Below, in pieces: positions 56,749 through 62,563 of a stretch of 64,000 bases of DNA. The first letter of the stretch is position 1. Each line of letters opens with the position of its first letter. Source of the DNA: Leuconostoc gasicomitatum LMG 18811 (GTDB lineage Bacteria; Bacillota; Bacilli; Lactobacillales; Lactobacillaceae). Both the position numbers and the translations under genes were made by a program. Location: assembly GCF_000196855.1 (NCBI RefSeq), contig NC_014319.1, positions 744,001 through 808,000 on the forward strand, in the 5' to 3' direction. The notes beneath the pieces were generated by a model. That model was not told the origin of the DNA, made no database searches, and worked only from the letters and a program-made list of their open reading frames with translations.

Positions 56749-57150
56749 ATGATTCCTAAACGTGGATACTTTCAACCATTAGATATAACAGGACAAATAG
56801 GCTGGCTTTGGTGGTTTATATTGTTCATGGCCGGTATCATATTATGGAGTGAAACAACATTTAAATTAGAAATGATGCCAATCGTCTATCTCTTATTCAT
56901 GTTGATACTAGGAATTATAACTATTTTGCGTCGTCGTGTTTATGTTGCGGGCGCACAATTGTTTTTGGGACGCGTATTTGTCTCAGATTACGAAAAAATT
57001 TCTCTTACAACGATGGTTAACTGGCAACTAAATGGCCATGTACTATCTTTTACACGTGCTGGACGATCACGTAAATACTGGCTAAGTCAAAACATTGCAA
57101 ATCAAATTAAGGAATACATGGCTACTTATGACAAAAAAGATAACAATTAA
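56749..57150 (+). CDS. EbsA-like small membrane protein
   Basis: 133 aa. Two membrane helices (about 18-38 and 45-62) and a cytosolic C-terminal domain with RRRVYVAGAQLFLGRVF and GRSRKYWLS. Resembles the EbsA family found in lactic bacteria beside RNase H and rluD genes. The role is not known. ACTGGAGC precedes the ATG. The rluD start lies inside its 3' end. Confidence 0.55.
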   Translation: MIPKRGYFQPLDITGQIGWLWWFILFMAGIILWSETTFKLEMMPIVYLLFMLILGIITILRRRVYVAGAQLFLGRVFVSDYEKISLTTMVNWQLNGHVLSFTRAGRSRKYWLSQNIANQIKEYMATYDKKDNN

Positions 57151-58054
57151 TATTATTGATCAAATAGGTCGCATTGATGCAATTTTGGCAAAAGAAAATT
57201 TACCATATTCACGTACAACATTAGCAGAGTGGTTACAAACCGGACACATTTTAGTGAATGGGGTTCAAGTCAAAAGAGCCTATAAAGTAACAACGGGTGA
57301 TACAATCACCATTTTACAGCCAGAAGTGATAACAACTGAAATTATTGCAGAAGATATACCACTCGATATTATTTATGAAGATGATGATATTTTGGTTGTT
57401 AATAAACCGCAGGGAATGGTTGTTCATCCGGCTGCAGGACATAGCTCTGGGACACTTGTTAATGCATTACTTTTTCATGCGCCATTGTCGACAATTAATG
57501 GTGAATTCAGACCAGGAATTGTTCATCGTATTGATCGTGATACCAGTGGTTTATTAATGGTCGCAAAAAATGATCAGGCACATCAGGGACTTTCAGCACA
57601 ACTTAAAGCACATAAAAATGATCGTATTTATTATGCATTAGTGCGTGGTGAATTTGTTGAAAATTCCGGCACAATTAATGCGCCGATTAATCGTCATAAA
57701 GTAGATCGAAAAAAGCAGGCCGTGCAAGAAGGTGGCCGTGAGGCAATAACACATTTTGAAGTGATTGAACGATATGTTGGTTATACGCTATTGAAAGTAC
57801 GCTTAGAAACAGGTCGGACACATCAAATTCGTGTGCACATGACGTATATTGGTCATCCAGTTGTTGGTGATCCAGTTTATGGTTCTGCCCAAAATTTAGC
57901 TGGGGTCAAATTAAATGGGCAAATGTTGCATGCTAAAACCTTATCATTAACACAACCAAAAACTGGGGAAGAATTAAGATTTGATAGCGCATTACCTGCT
58001 TATTTTAAAGATGCTTTAGCAACCTTAACACCAATTATTCAAAACAATAATTAA
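57128..58054 (+). CDS. rluD: RluD family pseudouridine synthase
   Basis: 308 aa from ATG 57128, with AAGGA 18 nt away; the longer frame from 57095 lies inside the previous gene. S4 RNA-binding domain (15-70), then the synthase core with IVHRIDRDTSGLL (catalytic Asp), GRTHQIRVHM and PVVGDPVYG. Modifies large-subunit rRNA. The rluD-pyrR order is widespread in Firmicutes. Confidence 0.92.
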   Translation: MTKKITINIIDQIGRIDAILAKENLPYSRTTLAEWLQTGHILVNGVQVKRAYKVTTGDTITILQPEVITTEIIAEDIPLDIIYEDDDILVVNKPQGMVVHPAAGHSSGTLVNALLFHAPLSTINGEFRPGIVHRIDRDTSGLLMVAKNDQAHQGLSAQLKAHKNDRIYYALVRGEFVENSGTINAPINRHKVDRKKQAVQEGGREAITHFEVIERYVGYTLLKVRLETGRTHQIRVHMTYIGHPVVGDPVYGSAQNLAGVKLNGQMLHAKTLSLTQPKTGEELRFDSALPAYFKDALATLTPIIQNNN

Positions 58055-58102: not shown

Positions 58103-58630
58103 ATGACAAATAAAGAAGTGCTTGATAGTGCCTCGTTGCAACGTGCATTGACGCGTATTACATATGAAATTATTGAACGAAACAAGGGTGGCCAAGATTT
58201 AATTCTTGTTGGTATTAAAACGCGTGGCGAATTTTTAGCGCAACGTATTGCTAGTCGTTTAGAGCAACTGGAAGGTGTGAAAATTCCCGTTATGGCAATT
58301 GACATCACTAATTTCCGTGATGATGTTTTGAATCAAGAGGATAGCCTAGGCTTAAATGAGGCAGAAAAAAATAATATTGCTGATAAAAATATTGTTTTGA
58401 TTGATGATGTTTTATTTACTGGCCGAACAATACGTGCCGCATTAGATGCGCTGATACATATAGGGCGACCAAATAGTATTTCTTTAGCTGTTTTGGTAGA
58501 TCGTGGTCACCGTGAATTACCAATACGTGCCGATTTTGTTGGCAAAAACATTCCAACAGCTCAAAATGAAAAAATCAAAGTACTGGTTCAAGAAATTGAT
58601 GGCCATGATGCCGTCGAAATCGTACATTAA
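58103..58630 (+). CDS. pyrR: PyrR, pyrimidine attenuation regulator / UPRTase
   Basis: 175 aa. Phosphoribosyltransferase fold: [33 protein letters not shown] (PRPP motif, quoted by its 20 core residues) and [11 protein letters not shown]. PyrR binds UMP and pyr mRNA to promote termination. I find no PyrR-binding loop or terminator between pyrR and the carA-like gene. The ATG has no SD of its own. Heads pyrR-carA*-carB*-orf97. Confidence 0.93.
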
Positions 58631-58642
58631 GAGGAGAAGTAG

Positions 58643-58696
58643 GTGCACGGAGTTCAGAGTAATAATTTTACTGATGATGTGAATTTACAAGTGTAA
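58643..58696 (+). CDS. Putative 17-codon leader ORF before carA-like gene
   Basis: GTG at 58643, 6 nt after GAGGAG, 17 codons, stop four bases before the carA-like ATG. The carA-like start has no SD, so it may depend on reinitiation after this frame. It could be chance; two small hairpins lie in the same stretch. Confidence 0.35.
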   Translation: MHGVQSNNFTDDVNLQV

Positions 58697-58700
58697 AAAT

Positions 58701-59786
58701 ATGATACAACGTCACTTAATTCTTGAAGATGGGACGATATTTCCGGGACTTGGCTTTGGGGCACCGGCAACCACTTTTGGAGAAATTATTTTTCATACTG
58801 CCATGACTGGCTATCAAGAAATCATTACTGACCCGATATATGATGGTCAAATGATCGTTTTTGCGACGCCTGTTGTTGGTGCATCAGGCATTCATGCAGA
58901 AGCATATGAGTCAGTTAAACCCACTATTAGTGGCATGATTGTTCATGATTTGGCTGAAGTATCTGTTAACCGTCAGCGCCGTATGAATTTAGATCGGTTT
59001 TTAAAGCAACATAATATTCCTGGACTATATCAAGTTGACACGCGTCAACTCATTAGACATTTACGTGAAACTGGCCCACAAAAAGCGAGCATCGTTGATT
59101 TTGCGGATGAACATGCTATTGATCAATTGGTTGCAACTGTTTTGACAAACAAACAGGTGCAAAGTACTGCAACGCCAAAACCATATGCTAATCCTGGTCG
59201 TGGTCGGCATATTGTTGTCATTGATTTTGGTCTAAAACATGGTATTTTACGTATGTTGGGTGATTATGATGCTAATGTGTCAGTCCTACCCTATACGACC
59301 AGTGTGGCAGAAGTTCTGACATTGGATCCTGATGGTATTATTTTGTCTACCGGTCCAGGAGATCCTAGAACATTGCCAGATAGTGTTTTAACGTTAATTC
59401 GTGTTTTACAATCGAAAGTGCCTATGTTAGGAATTGGTCTAGGACATGAATTGTTTGCACTAGCAAACGATGCAGAATTAATGCCCCTACCATCAGAACA
59501 TCATGGTATGAACCATCCCATCCAAGAAATTATTACTCGCCAAATTTTTTATGCGATGCAGGGTCAAGGCTACGCGGTGGATGCGTCATCAATTAACCGT
59601 AAAAAACTATTTGTGACTTATCGTGATCTTGTAGATGGCGCAGTTCAAGGATTACGACATCGTGAATTCCCGGCTTTTAGTGTACAATTCTTTCCTGATG
59701 CTGCGCCAGGTCCGCTTGAAGCAACAACTGTATTTGCAGATTTCTTTGAAACGGTAGAAGATTATGTCGAACATTACAATCAATAA
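58701..59786 (+). CDS. carA: CarA-like protein lacking the glutaminase triad
   Basis: 361 aa, normal CarA length and fold: LILEDGTIFPG, AMTGYQEIITDP, VDTRQLIRHLR, LSTGPGDPRT. The class I amidotransferase site is destroyed: the elbow reads GIGLGHE (Gly246 for the nucleophilic Cys, GGT at 59436-59438, one base from TGT) and VQFFPDA replaces VQYHPEA (Phe331 for His, Asp333 for Glu). It cannot release ammonia from glutamine. Overlaps the next gene by 23 bases. Intact frame suggests a kept, non-glutaminase role. Confidence 0.88.
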   Translation: MIQRHLILEDGTIFPGLGFGAPATTFGEIIFHTAMTGYQEIITDPIYDGQMIVFATPVVGASGIHAEAYESVKPTISGMIVHDLAEVSVNRQRRMNLDRFLKQHNIPGLYQVDTRQLIRHLRETGPQKASIVDFADEHAIDQLVATVLTNKQVQSTATPKPYANPGRGRHIVVIDFGLKHGILRMLGDYDANVSVLPYTTSVAEVLTLDPDGIILSTGPGDPRTLPDSVLTLIRVLQSKVPMLGIGLGHELFALANDAELMPLPSEHHGMNHPIQEIITRQIFYAMQGQGYAVDASSINRKKLFVTYRDLVDGAVQGLRHREFPAFSVQFFPDAAPGPLEATTVFADFFETVEDYVEHYNQ

Positions 59787-62277
59787 TAAAATCAAAAAAA
59801 TATTATTTATCGGTGCTGGCGCAAATGATTTTGGCCGTGAAGCAGAGCATGATGCGGCAATATATCAAGTGATGCCGGAATTACGAGGGCATGGCATTGA
59901 AGTTTTTGTCGTTGATGAAAATCCTTACGCATTGTCGCTGGAAAGTTTGGCAGCGACAACTTTTTGGCAGCCCTTAACGATTGAAAACTTAAAAAAAATA
60001 GTCAAAGAAAATAACATCGATACGGTTGCACCTTTGTTTGGAGGTGAAGCATCGTTACGTTTGTGGGCAGAAGTCGTACAAAGCTGGTCGCATGGTGATG
60101 GGCCTGTACCAAATACACTTGGACTGAGTATTGAGATGTTACTCAAAGTGAATAATATTCCAGCCCTAACTGCGTATATGGCCAAAAATGGGTTACCGGT
60201 CATCAATAATTATGTGCTGAAAGCACAAGATGAAGCTAACGAGCTGTTACGTGAATTACAATTACCATTGATGATACGGGCTTTACATCCAAACCAAACA
60301 AATACACGCCATATTGTGGAACGTTTAGATGACTTTGAGGATGCTATTAATCTTGCAAAATTACAATCTGTTACGCAAGAAGTCATCATCTCTAAAGCAA
60401 TTAATGGATTAAAGGAAGTCAGTATAGAGGTATTGCGCGATTTTCGTGGCAATAAAATGCAGATTGGTGCAAGCGAGGATATGGATCCTATTGGCATTCA
60501 TACAGCAGATTCACTTAGCGTATCGCCCATTTTAACAATTCAAGATCAGTTGATTAGCAAAATGCGTGATTATGCATTTAGGGTAGCTGATATATTGCAA
60601 TTACAAGGTGTGATGCATGTACAATTTGCTGTTGATGATGATACAAACAAGATTTATATTATCAAAGTATCACCTTATATAGACCAAATGGCAACGCGTA
60701 TGTCATTAGCCACAGGGTATCCAACGATGCTTGTAACGATCAACTTAGCACTAGGTGTCGCATTAGAAGATATCGTTTTGCCACATAATTTTGGTAAAAA
60801 TACTGCCATAATGGAACCAATGATGGATCATGTGGTTGTAAAGTTGCCTGTGTTTCCGTTTGGAGAATTAGTTCAAGCAGGTGTGCATGTTAACCGACAG
60901 CTCAATAGTGTGCAAAAGTCCATCGGGACAACCCTTGGATTTGGCCGAACATTTATTGAGGCCTTAGAAAAAGCAATTCGCTCAGCCCATTTTAATAATG
61001 CTAGTTTTTCGCCAACAAATATGGCATATATTAATGATGATGAATTGATTCAGCAACTGATTCACCCACAGGATAACCGTGTGTTATTGTTAATTGAAGC
61101 TATCAAACGTGGTTATGAAATTGATGAGTTAGCAGAATTAACAGCTATTGATGAATTCTATTTTTATCAACTGAAACATTTGCATACATTGGAGGAAGAG
61201 GTTGAGGCGGATATCGATAGCATTAAATCCTTACGACGTGGTAAAAAATATGGTTTATCCGACGGATTACTCGCACGCTTTTGGCATACCGATTTTAACA
61301 TTATCAGAACTTTAGCAAAAGAGAATCATATTGACGTCACTTACAAGGCAGTTGAGCCTTCTGCTGGTGAATTTCCTGAAAACGCACGCCAATATTATGC
61401 GACCTATGAAGCGGAAAATGAATCGGTACAAATTAACGCAGACTCAGTGCTTGTTATTGGTTCTGGTGCTTTTAGAATGGGAGATGCAGCGTCAGGGGGA
61501 TATGCTACGACAATTACGATGTCTGAGTTACGCCGATTACAATACCCGACAATCATTATGAACAATAATCCAAGTGATGCAACGTTATTACCACATTTGG
61601 CTGATAAGCAGTACCTTGAGCCGCTTGAAATATCGGATGTTATGCGAGTAGTAGAGTTAGAAAAACCTCAAGCTATTGTGATCCCTGGTAATCGCCGTAA
61701 ACTCATTAAGGCTTTACGAGATCTAGGTCAGCAGGTTATTATTTTACCAAAGGAAAAGCATACACCAAGCGGTCCAAATGAAAATCAATCAGAATTTGCA
61801 TTGAATTTATTTTATGATGGGCAAAATATGTATCCGATAAATTTCACGCAACATATGGCAGGTGAAGTGCGTATTATTCCCCAACTGGCGAATTTACCAG
61901 AAGAAATAGCTCAAAAAGAAATAGAGAGTCCTGGTGTTTATCAAATTATTTGGTATCAAAATACGGTCACATGGATTGACACTGTCGATGCAGCAGATAT
62001 TGTTCATGATTCTTGGTTACGACCCATGCCATTTGGTCAAATTGCTTATATGACAAAAGTTATGGATGTACAATGGATAAGATTAACCATACGAGCGGCA
62101 TTGCATGAACTAACTGATCAAGATGTTACAACATTGGCAATGATTAACCAGCAACCTATTGTTCAACCATTAAGCATGATAGCTGCCGATGTGAATTATC
62201 GCCTGCATCTCCAACCTAACGAAGTGATTGATGGTACAAGATTTGAAATAGGTGTCGGTGTGAATTATTATGAGTGA
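59764..62277 (+). CDS. carB: CarB-like protein, eroded and shortened
   Basis: 837 aa against about 1060. The first half aligns with CarB (IGAGANDFGREAEHDAA, MDPIGIHTADSLSVSP, TTLGFGRTFIEAL), but the Gly-rich ATP loop (TLGGTGGG type) reads LHPNQTN near 174-180 and EVNPR reads K301-V-S303-P-Y305, so phosphate and metal ligands are gone. After the helical middle (to about 545) the second half starts with VLVIGSGAFRMG yet has only about 277 residues; ATP-grasp 2 and the MGS domain are missing or unrecognisable. Not catalytic as CPSase in my reading. Confidence 0.88.
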   Translation: MSNITINNKIKKILFIGAGANDFGREAEHDAAIYQVMPELRGHGIEVFVVDENPYALSLESLAATTFWQPLTIENLKKIVKENNIDTVAPLFGGEASLRLWAEVVQSWSHGDGPVPNTLGLSIEMLLKVNNIPALTAYMAKNGLPVINNYVLKAQDEANELLRELQLPLMIRALHPNQTNTRHIVERLDDFEDAINLAKLQSVTQEVIISKAINGLKEVSIEVLRDFRGNKMQIGASEDMDPIGIHTADSLSVSPILTIQDQLISKMRDYAFRVADILQLQGVMHVQFAVDDDTNKIYIIKVSPYIDQMATRMSLATGYPTMLVTINLALGVALEDIVLPHNFGKNTAIMEPMMDHVVVKLPVFPFGELVQAGVHVNRQLNSVQKSIGTTLGFGRTFIEALEKAIRSAHFNNASFSPTNMAYINDDELIQQLIHPQDNRVLLLIEAIKRGYEIDELAELTAIDEFYFYQLKHLHTLEEEVEADIDSIKSLRRGKKYGLSDGLLARFWHTDFNIIRTLAKENHIDVTYKAVEPSAGEFPENARQYYATYEAENESVQINADSVLVIGSGAFRMGDAASGGYATTITMSELRRLQYPTIIMNNNPSDATLLPHLADKQYLEPLEISDVMRVVELEKPQAIVIPGNRRKLIKALRDLGQQVIILPKEKHTPSGPNENQSEFALNLFYDGQNMYPINFTQHMAGEVRIIPQLANLPEEIAQKEIESPGVYQIIWYQNTVTWIDTVDAADIVHDSWLRPMPFGQIAYMTKVMDVQWIRLTIRAALHELTDQDVTTLAMINQQPIVQPLSMIAADVNYRLHLQPNEVIDGTRFEIGVGVNYYE

Positions 62278-62563
62278 TAGTAAAAAATACGACACACAAT
62301 TGTTTACTGGTGTCGTGGTAGAGCAGGACGCCTCGGGCCGGTATCGACCTAAAACTGGTGTTACACCTAATGTTTGGCGAACCGGAAAACATACTAAAGG
62401 AAAATTTAAACAAATTGGGCAGGTTTTTTTAACGGAAAAAGGCCAGGCGATAGCTGTGCTAAATACTGAAAAATTGGCTTTTAACAAACGACATAATTAT
62501 TCCTCGTTACAACGTTGGACCAGCCAACAAGTTAGTCTCGAATTGTTAAAAGATTGGTTATGA
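62270..62563 (+). CDS. Unknown 97-aa protein in the pyrR-carA*-carB* operon
   Basis: 97 aa, not recognised. Starts 8 bases before the carB-like stop, so coupled. Basic N-terminal half with GVVVEQDASGRYRPKTG and RTGKHTKGKFKQIGQ, beta-rich, no membrane helix or signal. Ends with SLQRWTSQQVSLELLKDWL. Its coupling to the pseudoenzyme pair is the only clue to function. Confidence 0.6.
   Translation: MSDSKKYDTQLFTGVVVEQDASGRYRPKTGVTPNVWRTGKHTKGKFKQIGQVFLTEKGQAIAVLNTEKLAFNKRHNYSSLQRWTSQQVSLELLKDWL

Follow-up and report, generated by a model that had tools for sequence, protein, structure and literature searches.

Active sites of the CarA-CarB pair

The window, a stretch of 64,000 nucleotides from Leuconostoc gasicomitatum LMG 18811, contains two overlapping genes related to carA and carB, which encode the small and large subunits of carbamoyl phosphate synthase (CPS). 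All window features described here lie on the forward strand. The first open reading frame (58701–59786) encodes a CarA of 361 residues in which two domains score above the Pfam cut-off, the CPSase small chain (PF00988, 149.8 bits) and the class I GATase (PF00117, 112.4 bits). In an alignment with E. coli CarA, the catalytic cysteine and histidine of the glutaminase are both replaced. The nucleophile elbow reads GIGLGHE (residues 244–250; 59430–59450), with Gly246 at the position of Cys269, and FFPDA (residues 330–334; 59688–59702) places Phe331 at the position of His353. The residues at the Cys-His-Glu/Asp triad are Gly, Phe and Asp. The glutamine site is changed at four other positions (S47 to Ile, Q273 to Glu, N311 to Gly and H312 to Gln); no change is seen at Lys202 or in the SxGPG motif. 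NCBIfam NF009475 matches the protein with 411.9 bits and labels this dead small subunit a carbamoyl phosphate synthase, and its AF2 model has a pTM of 0.62.

The first-pass annotation had located the same two motifs at the same residues, noted an intact STGPGDP and N-terminal CarA domain, and proposed a CarA without glutaminase activity. The open reading frame, the PF00988 match and the substitutions at Cys, His and the glutamine site bear this out. The annotation also counted Glu as a third catalytic loss, which does not hold, because the intact CarA of the same genome also has Asp (FHPDA), as do most of the intact relatives read. The Gly246 codon, GGT, is indeed one base from the TGT of cysteine, but the other changes are not all more distant, since Glu and Asp also differ by a single base. 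Its interval, 59436–59699, covers the glutaminase half only; the feature is the whole pair, 58701–62277. Our analysis adds that the partner CarB is dead as well, that an intact CPS is encoded elsewhere in the genome, and that the dead state occurs in most genera of the family and is recurrent. A private mutation or a sequencing error as the cause of the glycine is ruled out: the same state is common to genomes G016 and G112 and to all in-genus relatives at this locus, and every one of 166 distinct dead CarA proteins has Gly at the Cys269 position. The backbone of a nucleophile elbow is strained, and glycine is the residue best tolerated there once cysteine is dispensable; the strain may have favoured Gly in the dead CarA after the need for Cys ended.

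The second open reading frame (59764–62277) starts 23 bases before the end of the dead carA and encodes a CarB of 837 residues, compared with 1073 in E. coli. Pfam recognises the CarB domains D1, D2 and D3. In the first ATP-grasp site, the catalytic residues are lost: E299 is replaced by Lys, N301 by Ser and R303 by Tyr. Lys301 (60664–60666) occupies the position of the E. coli metal ligand Glu299, and this position is Lys in 63 and Arg in 10 of the 73 dead CarB sequences sampled (the 73-row counts for CarA and CarB residues include duplicates and the window itself). R303 is Tyr in 65 of the 73. Other positions of the site are largely kept (E215 in 70/73, H243 in 73/73, Q285 in 61/73). The second ATP-grasp domain and the C-terminal allosteric domain are absent, and none of the 73 sequences has a residue at the six positions (E. 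coli numbering, between 715 and 756) that were scored. The protein falls below the curated NCBIfam cut-off for CarB (420.8 versus 1027). Its AF2 model, built from a 38-row alignment, has a pLDDT of 87.8, and the best Foldseek match is E. coli CarB (1c30, TM-score 0.85 by query length), with human CPS1 also among the best; the fold of the N-terminal half and the oligomerisation domain is thus that of CarB. In comparison with the CPS subunits (CarA/PyrAa and CarB/PyrAb), the pair belongs to the same sequence family and has the same fold and gene order, but lacks the Cys and His, has an altered glutamine site and a replaced ATP-grasp 1 metal ligand, and has lost ATP-grasp 2 and the C-terminal domain. 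The pair at 58701–62277 has the catalytic residues of neither the glutaminase nor the ATP-grasp sites.

A small DUF7671 protein (PF24710, 132 bits; 62270–62563) overlaps the end of the dead carB by 8 bases. It is present at L104–L107, L109 and L110 and at none of the other dead loci in that set. Among the dead loci read, it occurs in the window's genus and the nearest genera only; DUF7671 is a clade-specific addition to the dead carAB operon.

Gene neighbourhood, ancestry and selection

Upstream of the pair are an rluD-type pseudouridine synthase gene (57095–58054) and pyrR (58103–58630), the latter in the PyrR2 position. The rluD gene is a constant feature upstream of the dead pair, whether or not pyrR intervenes. 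PyrR matches NCBIfam NF003548 with 259.4 bits (cut-off 218) and is the only PyrR found in this genome. The second CarA of the genome (L108, 362 residues) retains Cys and His and belongs to an operon that also contains pyrB, pyrC, a carB encoding 1069 residues, pyrD, pyrF and pyrE and has no pyrR. A PyrR leader RNA (RF00515, 61.3 bits) precedes this intact operon, and with the family match it identifies the product of 58103–58630 as a PyrR attenuator protein. An Rfam search across 16 loci returned one tRNA and the leader of the relocated pyr operon and nothing else. At the window's own pyrR, no such leader was detected. A short open frame between pyrR and the dead carA (58643–58696) was considered as a leader peptide and dropped by eye; the pyrR-carA gap is variable among relatives. 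In genome G044 (L282, 1501–1588, minus strand), the interval between rluD and pyrR contains a sub-threshold PyrR leader (40.9 bits against a cut-off of 54); the operon of pyrR and dead carAB may thus be autoregulated in some genomes. Leader-like RNAs also occur in pyrB-less and other genomes (L264, L266–L273, L277 and L281) before genes that by eye resemble permeases or deoxyribosyltransferases. With gene names assigned in this way, they make up a PyrR regulon for salvage where de novo synthesis is missing. At L344 (G027), a uracil-permease-like gene, again by eye, lies between rluD and the dead carA and pyrR is elsewhere, an arrangement like a remnant of the ancestral pyr operon.

We surveyed 301 genomes, the window's own and 300 relatives. 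A CarA-family match is present in 298, and 89 match the short dead CarB strongly, under a strict cut (E ≤ 1e-150). Among 242 distinct CarA proteins of 320–440 residues, 166 are dead, defined as having neither Cys269 nor His353, 74 are intact, and two half cases were counted apart (L299, Cys with Leu; L345, Gly with His). The order rluD-(pyrR)-dead carA-dead carB is found in most genera sampled, including Lactiplantibacillus (with L. plantarum EGD-AQ4), Secundilactobacillus, Levilactobacillus, Paucilactobacillus, Limosilactobacillus and Pediococcus; the Paucilactobacillus and Limosilactobacillus loci have no pyrR between rluD and the dead carA. Gly occupies position 269 at all 80 loci from named organisms. 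Representatives of the genera g12, g13, g25, g30 and g31 have an intact CarA and no dead second copy. In other families of the order, an intact CarA is encoded in rluD-pyrR-pyrB-pyrC-carA-carB (L243, L245 and L254), and at L248 an LspA-like frame, identified by eye, precedes rluD. The window locus is therefore read as the ancestral pyr locus minus pyrB and pyrC, and the dead pair descended from the CarAB of an ancestral lspA-rluD-pyrR pyr locus.

The dead state arose at least four separate times. A tree of 82 CarA sequences with the catalytic columns removed, which omits ten rows of the first tree set as well as L314 and L315, requires five changes to dead in its best topology, and the well-supported branches force at least four. 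A single origin is rejected both by these counts and by constraining all dead CarA to one clade (p-AU 0.00137). When the columns of the linker motif described below are left out, the changes number four on the best tree and four on well-supported branches. Dead pairs are also found beyond the window's family. In g49 of family f2 (L239, L246, L248 and L249), a whole pyr operon contains a dead CarA and a full-length dead CarB with all active sites dead, and these genomes have no other CarA match. In family f4 (L252, L255, L345 and L346), a dead CarA is found with a CarB remnant of 577–579 residues near pyrR; L345 has Gly for Cys with the His kept. Those f2 and f4 genomes that have pyrB and only a dead CPS presumably obtain carbamoyl phosphate from another source. 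Within the window's own family, several genera have a full-length dead CarB in which both ATP-grasp sites are changed. The sole CarA match of genome G033 (L299, g33) keeps the Cys and has Leu for the catalytic His; it may represent an intermediate on the path to a dead copy.

Across most genera of the family, purifying selection maintains the dead pair. Within the genus, pairwise dN/dS of the dead CarA is 0.005–0.05 (Nei-Gojobori; dS is near saturation in most pairs and undefined in some). In five of five genome pairs, again with dS near saturation in most, dN is lower for the dead than for the intact CarA:.001 versus.009 (G016),.025 versus.054 (G266),.046 versus.112 (G136),.047 versus.118 (G160) and.064 versus.098 (G054). 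For CarB the relation is reversed, with dN of the dead copy higher in five of five pairs. The active-site loops of the dead CarA are relaxed in a column comparison with intact CarA, and CarB has shrunk in several lineages. Evolution of the dead pair is fast in family f4, where identity between G318 and G331 is 67% and 53%, compared with 95% for PyrB. A part of the dead CPS is guarded more strictly than the working copy, and the dead CPS therefore probably has a second job.

The interdomain linker of CarA

A column-wise comparison of 25 dead CarA of the main clade and 38 intact CarA shows that constraint was gained at one stretch, residues about 129–150, which in the window reads EHAIDQLVATVLTN. 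The gain, +0.39 over 15 residues, is the strongest along the protein, and none of 5000 column permutations gave a value as high. The stretch contains an interdomain linker motif, H138-x-x-D-Q-L-x-A-x-V-L-T149 (59112–59147), which we scored at eight positions. All 166 distinct dead CarA keep seven or eight of these (8/8 in 162 and 7/8 in four). Even L343, the most eroded dead copy, with a 659-residue CarB and a diverged PyrR, scores 7/8.

Among the 74 intact CarA, the scores are bimodal (0–4 in 39 and 6–8 in 35). In genomes of the family with a dead copy, the intact CarA scores at most 4/8 in 21 of 21. Ten genomes of the family without a dead copy were read: five score 6–8 (G011, G012, G025, G030 and G031), and the remaining five, all g29, score 0–3. 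Outside the family, intact CarA of f2, f3, f4 and f9 score 7–8, and those of f5, f7, f8 and E. coli 1–4. In G022, the dead L317, which has the motif, and the intact L305, which does not, are sisters (100/96) in a tree built without the motif columns; L317 is on a long branch. The motif was chosen post hoc from the alignment, and a relatedness-controlled test of it, with three to four independent pairs and none against the prediction, gives p 0.25.

Possible functions of the dead pair

Pseudoenzymes kept as regulators or scaffolds lose catalysis and retain their fold under strong constraint. The pair differs from such cases in that the enzyme has two subunits and three sites, and that both subunits have died on repeated, independent occasions. 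Its distribution limits what it can do. PyrB is missing in 47 of the 301 genomes, and dead CarA is present in at least 17 of 20 listed pyrB-less genomes: in 14 the loci read contain a dead CarA or CarB (G009, G013, G017, G024, G027, G034, G041, G044, G051, G052, G057, G060, G076 and G084), in three the dead CarA was recognised by score (G015, G020 and G053), and G048, G079 and G083 are outside the count. The job of the pair is therefore not carbamoyl phosphate synthesis. In some genomes no CarA other than the dead one was found, so that the pair does not obligatorily serve an intact CPS. PyrR is missing in ten of the 301 genomes; three of these have the dead pair (G242 and G299, each 99% complete, and G017, 87% complete), five, all g29, have an intact CarA only, and two have no CarA match. 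Service to PyrR is therefore not obligatory either, and an obligate PyrR partner is rejected as a general rule.

Based on these observations, we favour the reading that the ancestral CarA had two jobs, of which the dead copy keeps the non-catalytic one, a case of subfunctionalisation. The ancestral protein would have combined catalysis with a second function mediated by the interdomain linker helix, HAFDQLxATVL. After another CPS was gained, or the need for one ended, the ancestral copy would lose catalysis and keep the second job, and the copy that stayed catalytic would lose the linker motif. The second job would most likely be binding, with the CarA linker docking a partner. The CarB body, which mostly keeps E215, H243 and Q285 and has Lys or Arg at the metal ligand, may hold a nucleotide without catalysis and so act as a scaffold or sensor. 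Several observations weigh against this reading: the post hoc choice of the motif and its p value under control for relatedness, the fast evolution of the dead pair in f4, the higher dN of the dead CarB, and the absence of the motif in f5, f7 and f8. In g29, neither a dead copy nor the motif is present in the five genomes read, and the second job would therefore be dispensable there. A bolder version, which we find plausible without quite expecting it, is that the dead CPS serves lactic acid bacteria as a core regulator or scaffold independent of PyrR, and that its linker carries an old second function, kept through at least four losses of catalysis.

A specific form of subfunctionalisation, compatible with it, is that the pair acts as a co-factor of PyrR (PyrR2), sensing a nucleotide or inorganic carbon and adjusting the attenuation that depends on PyrR. 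By position the link is strong. The pyrR gene directly precedes the dead carA in the window and in most genera, and the window's genome has its sole PyrR at this locus and a PyrR leader at a pyr operon without pyrR. Leaders also precede the permease-like genes, so named by eye, of pyrB-less genomes, and g29 lacks both PyrR and the motif. The link is attractive because L. plantarum PyrR2 is reported (PMC3582564) to respond to inorganic carbon, and L. plantarum EGD-AQ4 (L143) has the window's order, rluD-pyrR-dead carA-dead carB. L. plantarum differs in having a second PyrR in its pyr operon (L331; two PyrR in the near-identical genome G258), compared with one in the window's genome; PMC7911632 gives pyrR2 as lp_1782 and pyrR1 as lp_2704. 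However, the three PyrR-less genomes keep the dead pair, and between G299 and G242 dN/dS of the dead CarA is about 0.05, lower than for RluD (0.067) and LspA (0.147). Bicarbonate sensing at ATP-grasp 1 was also considered. By analogy with biotin carboxylase, we take CarB R303 to be the bicarbonate-binding arginine, and its replacement by Tyr in most dead CarB argues against sensing at that site. The PyrR co-factor is a candidate, less likely than not, and not the whole answer.

The coexistence of dead and intact CPS in many genomes, the window's included, would fit dead subunits that join the intact enzyme as regulatory or inhibitory subunits, but the pair is also kept where the dead CarA is the only CarA found, as in G013, G024 and G044 (one match each), and we consider this improbable. 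No more credible is a pair that is still an enzyme, either an ammonia-dependent CPS or a ligase with new chemistry. Animal CPS I is ammonia-dependent; it has lost the glutaminase Cys and kept the domain, and in animals loss of the Cys alone is enough to yield an ammonia-dependent CPS. The dead pair shares this loss, and its CarB fold is kept, but CPS I retains both ATP-grasp sites and the dead pair neither. E299 is Lys or Arg throughout, R303 is changed, the second ATP-grasp is missing, and in the full-length dead CarB of other lineages both sites are changed. An ammonia-dependent CPS is rejected on these dead ATP sites. Least probable of all is that the pair is a decaying relic. The relaxed active-site loops and the shrinking CarB point that way; the frames are open family-wide, and the low dN/dS in the genus, a rate slower than that of the intact CarA and a near-invariant motif all argue against decay.

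Our literature search, which did not extend to the primary PyrR2 papers, found no description of a dead CarAB pair; inactive PyrAa2/PyrAb2 may have been noticed earlier. Because of the NCBIfam label on the dead CarA, models of metabolism may assign to these bacteria a CPS, and with it a step of CO2 fixation, that is missing from them. The need for CO2 seen in many lactic acid bacteria has been discussed in terms of the CPS step (PMC3582564), and the dead pair is a direct candidate for the sensor still missing from the PyrR2 response to inorganic carbon. Subfunctionalisation would here be a replicated case, in which a dozen residues of a textbook enzyme can be pinpointed as the seat of its second function. 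If the bolder version is true, the partner of the motif would establish a new regulatory connection, tying another process to carbamoyl phosphate, CO2 or nucleotide status.
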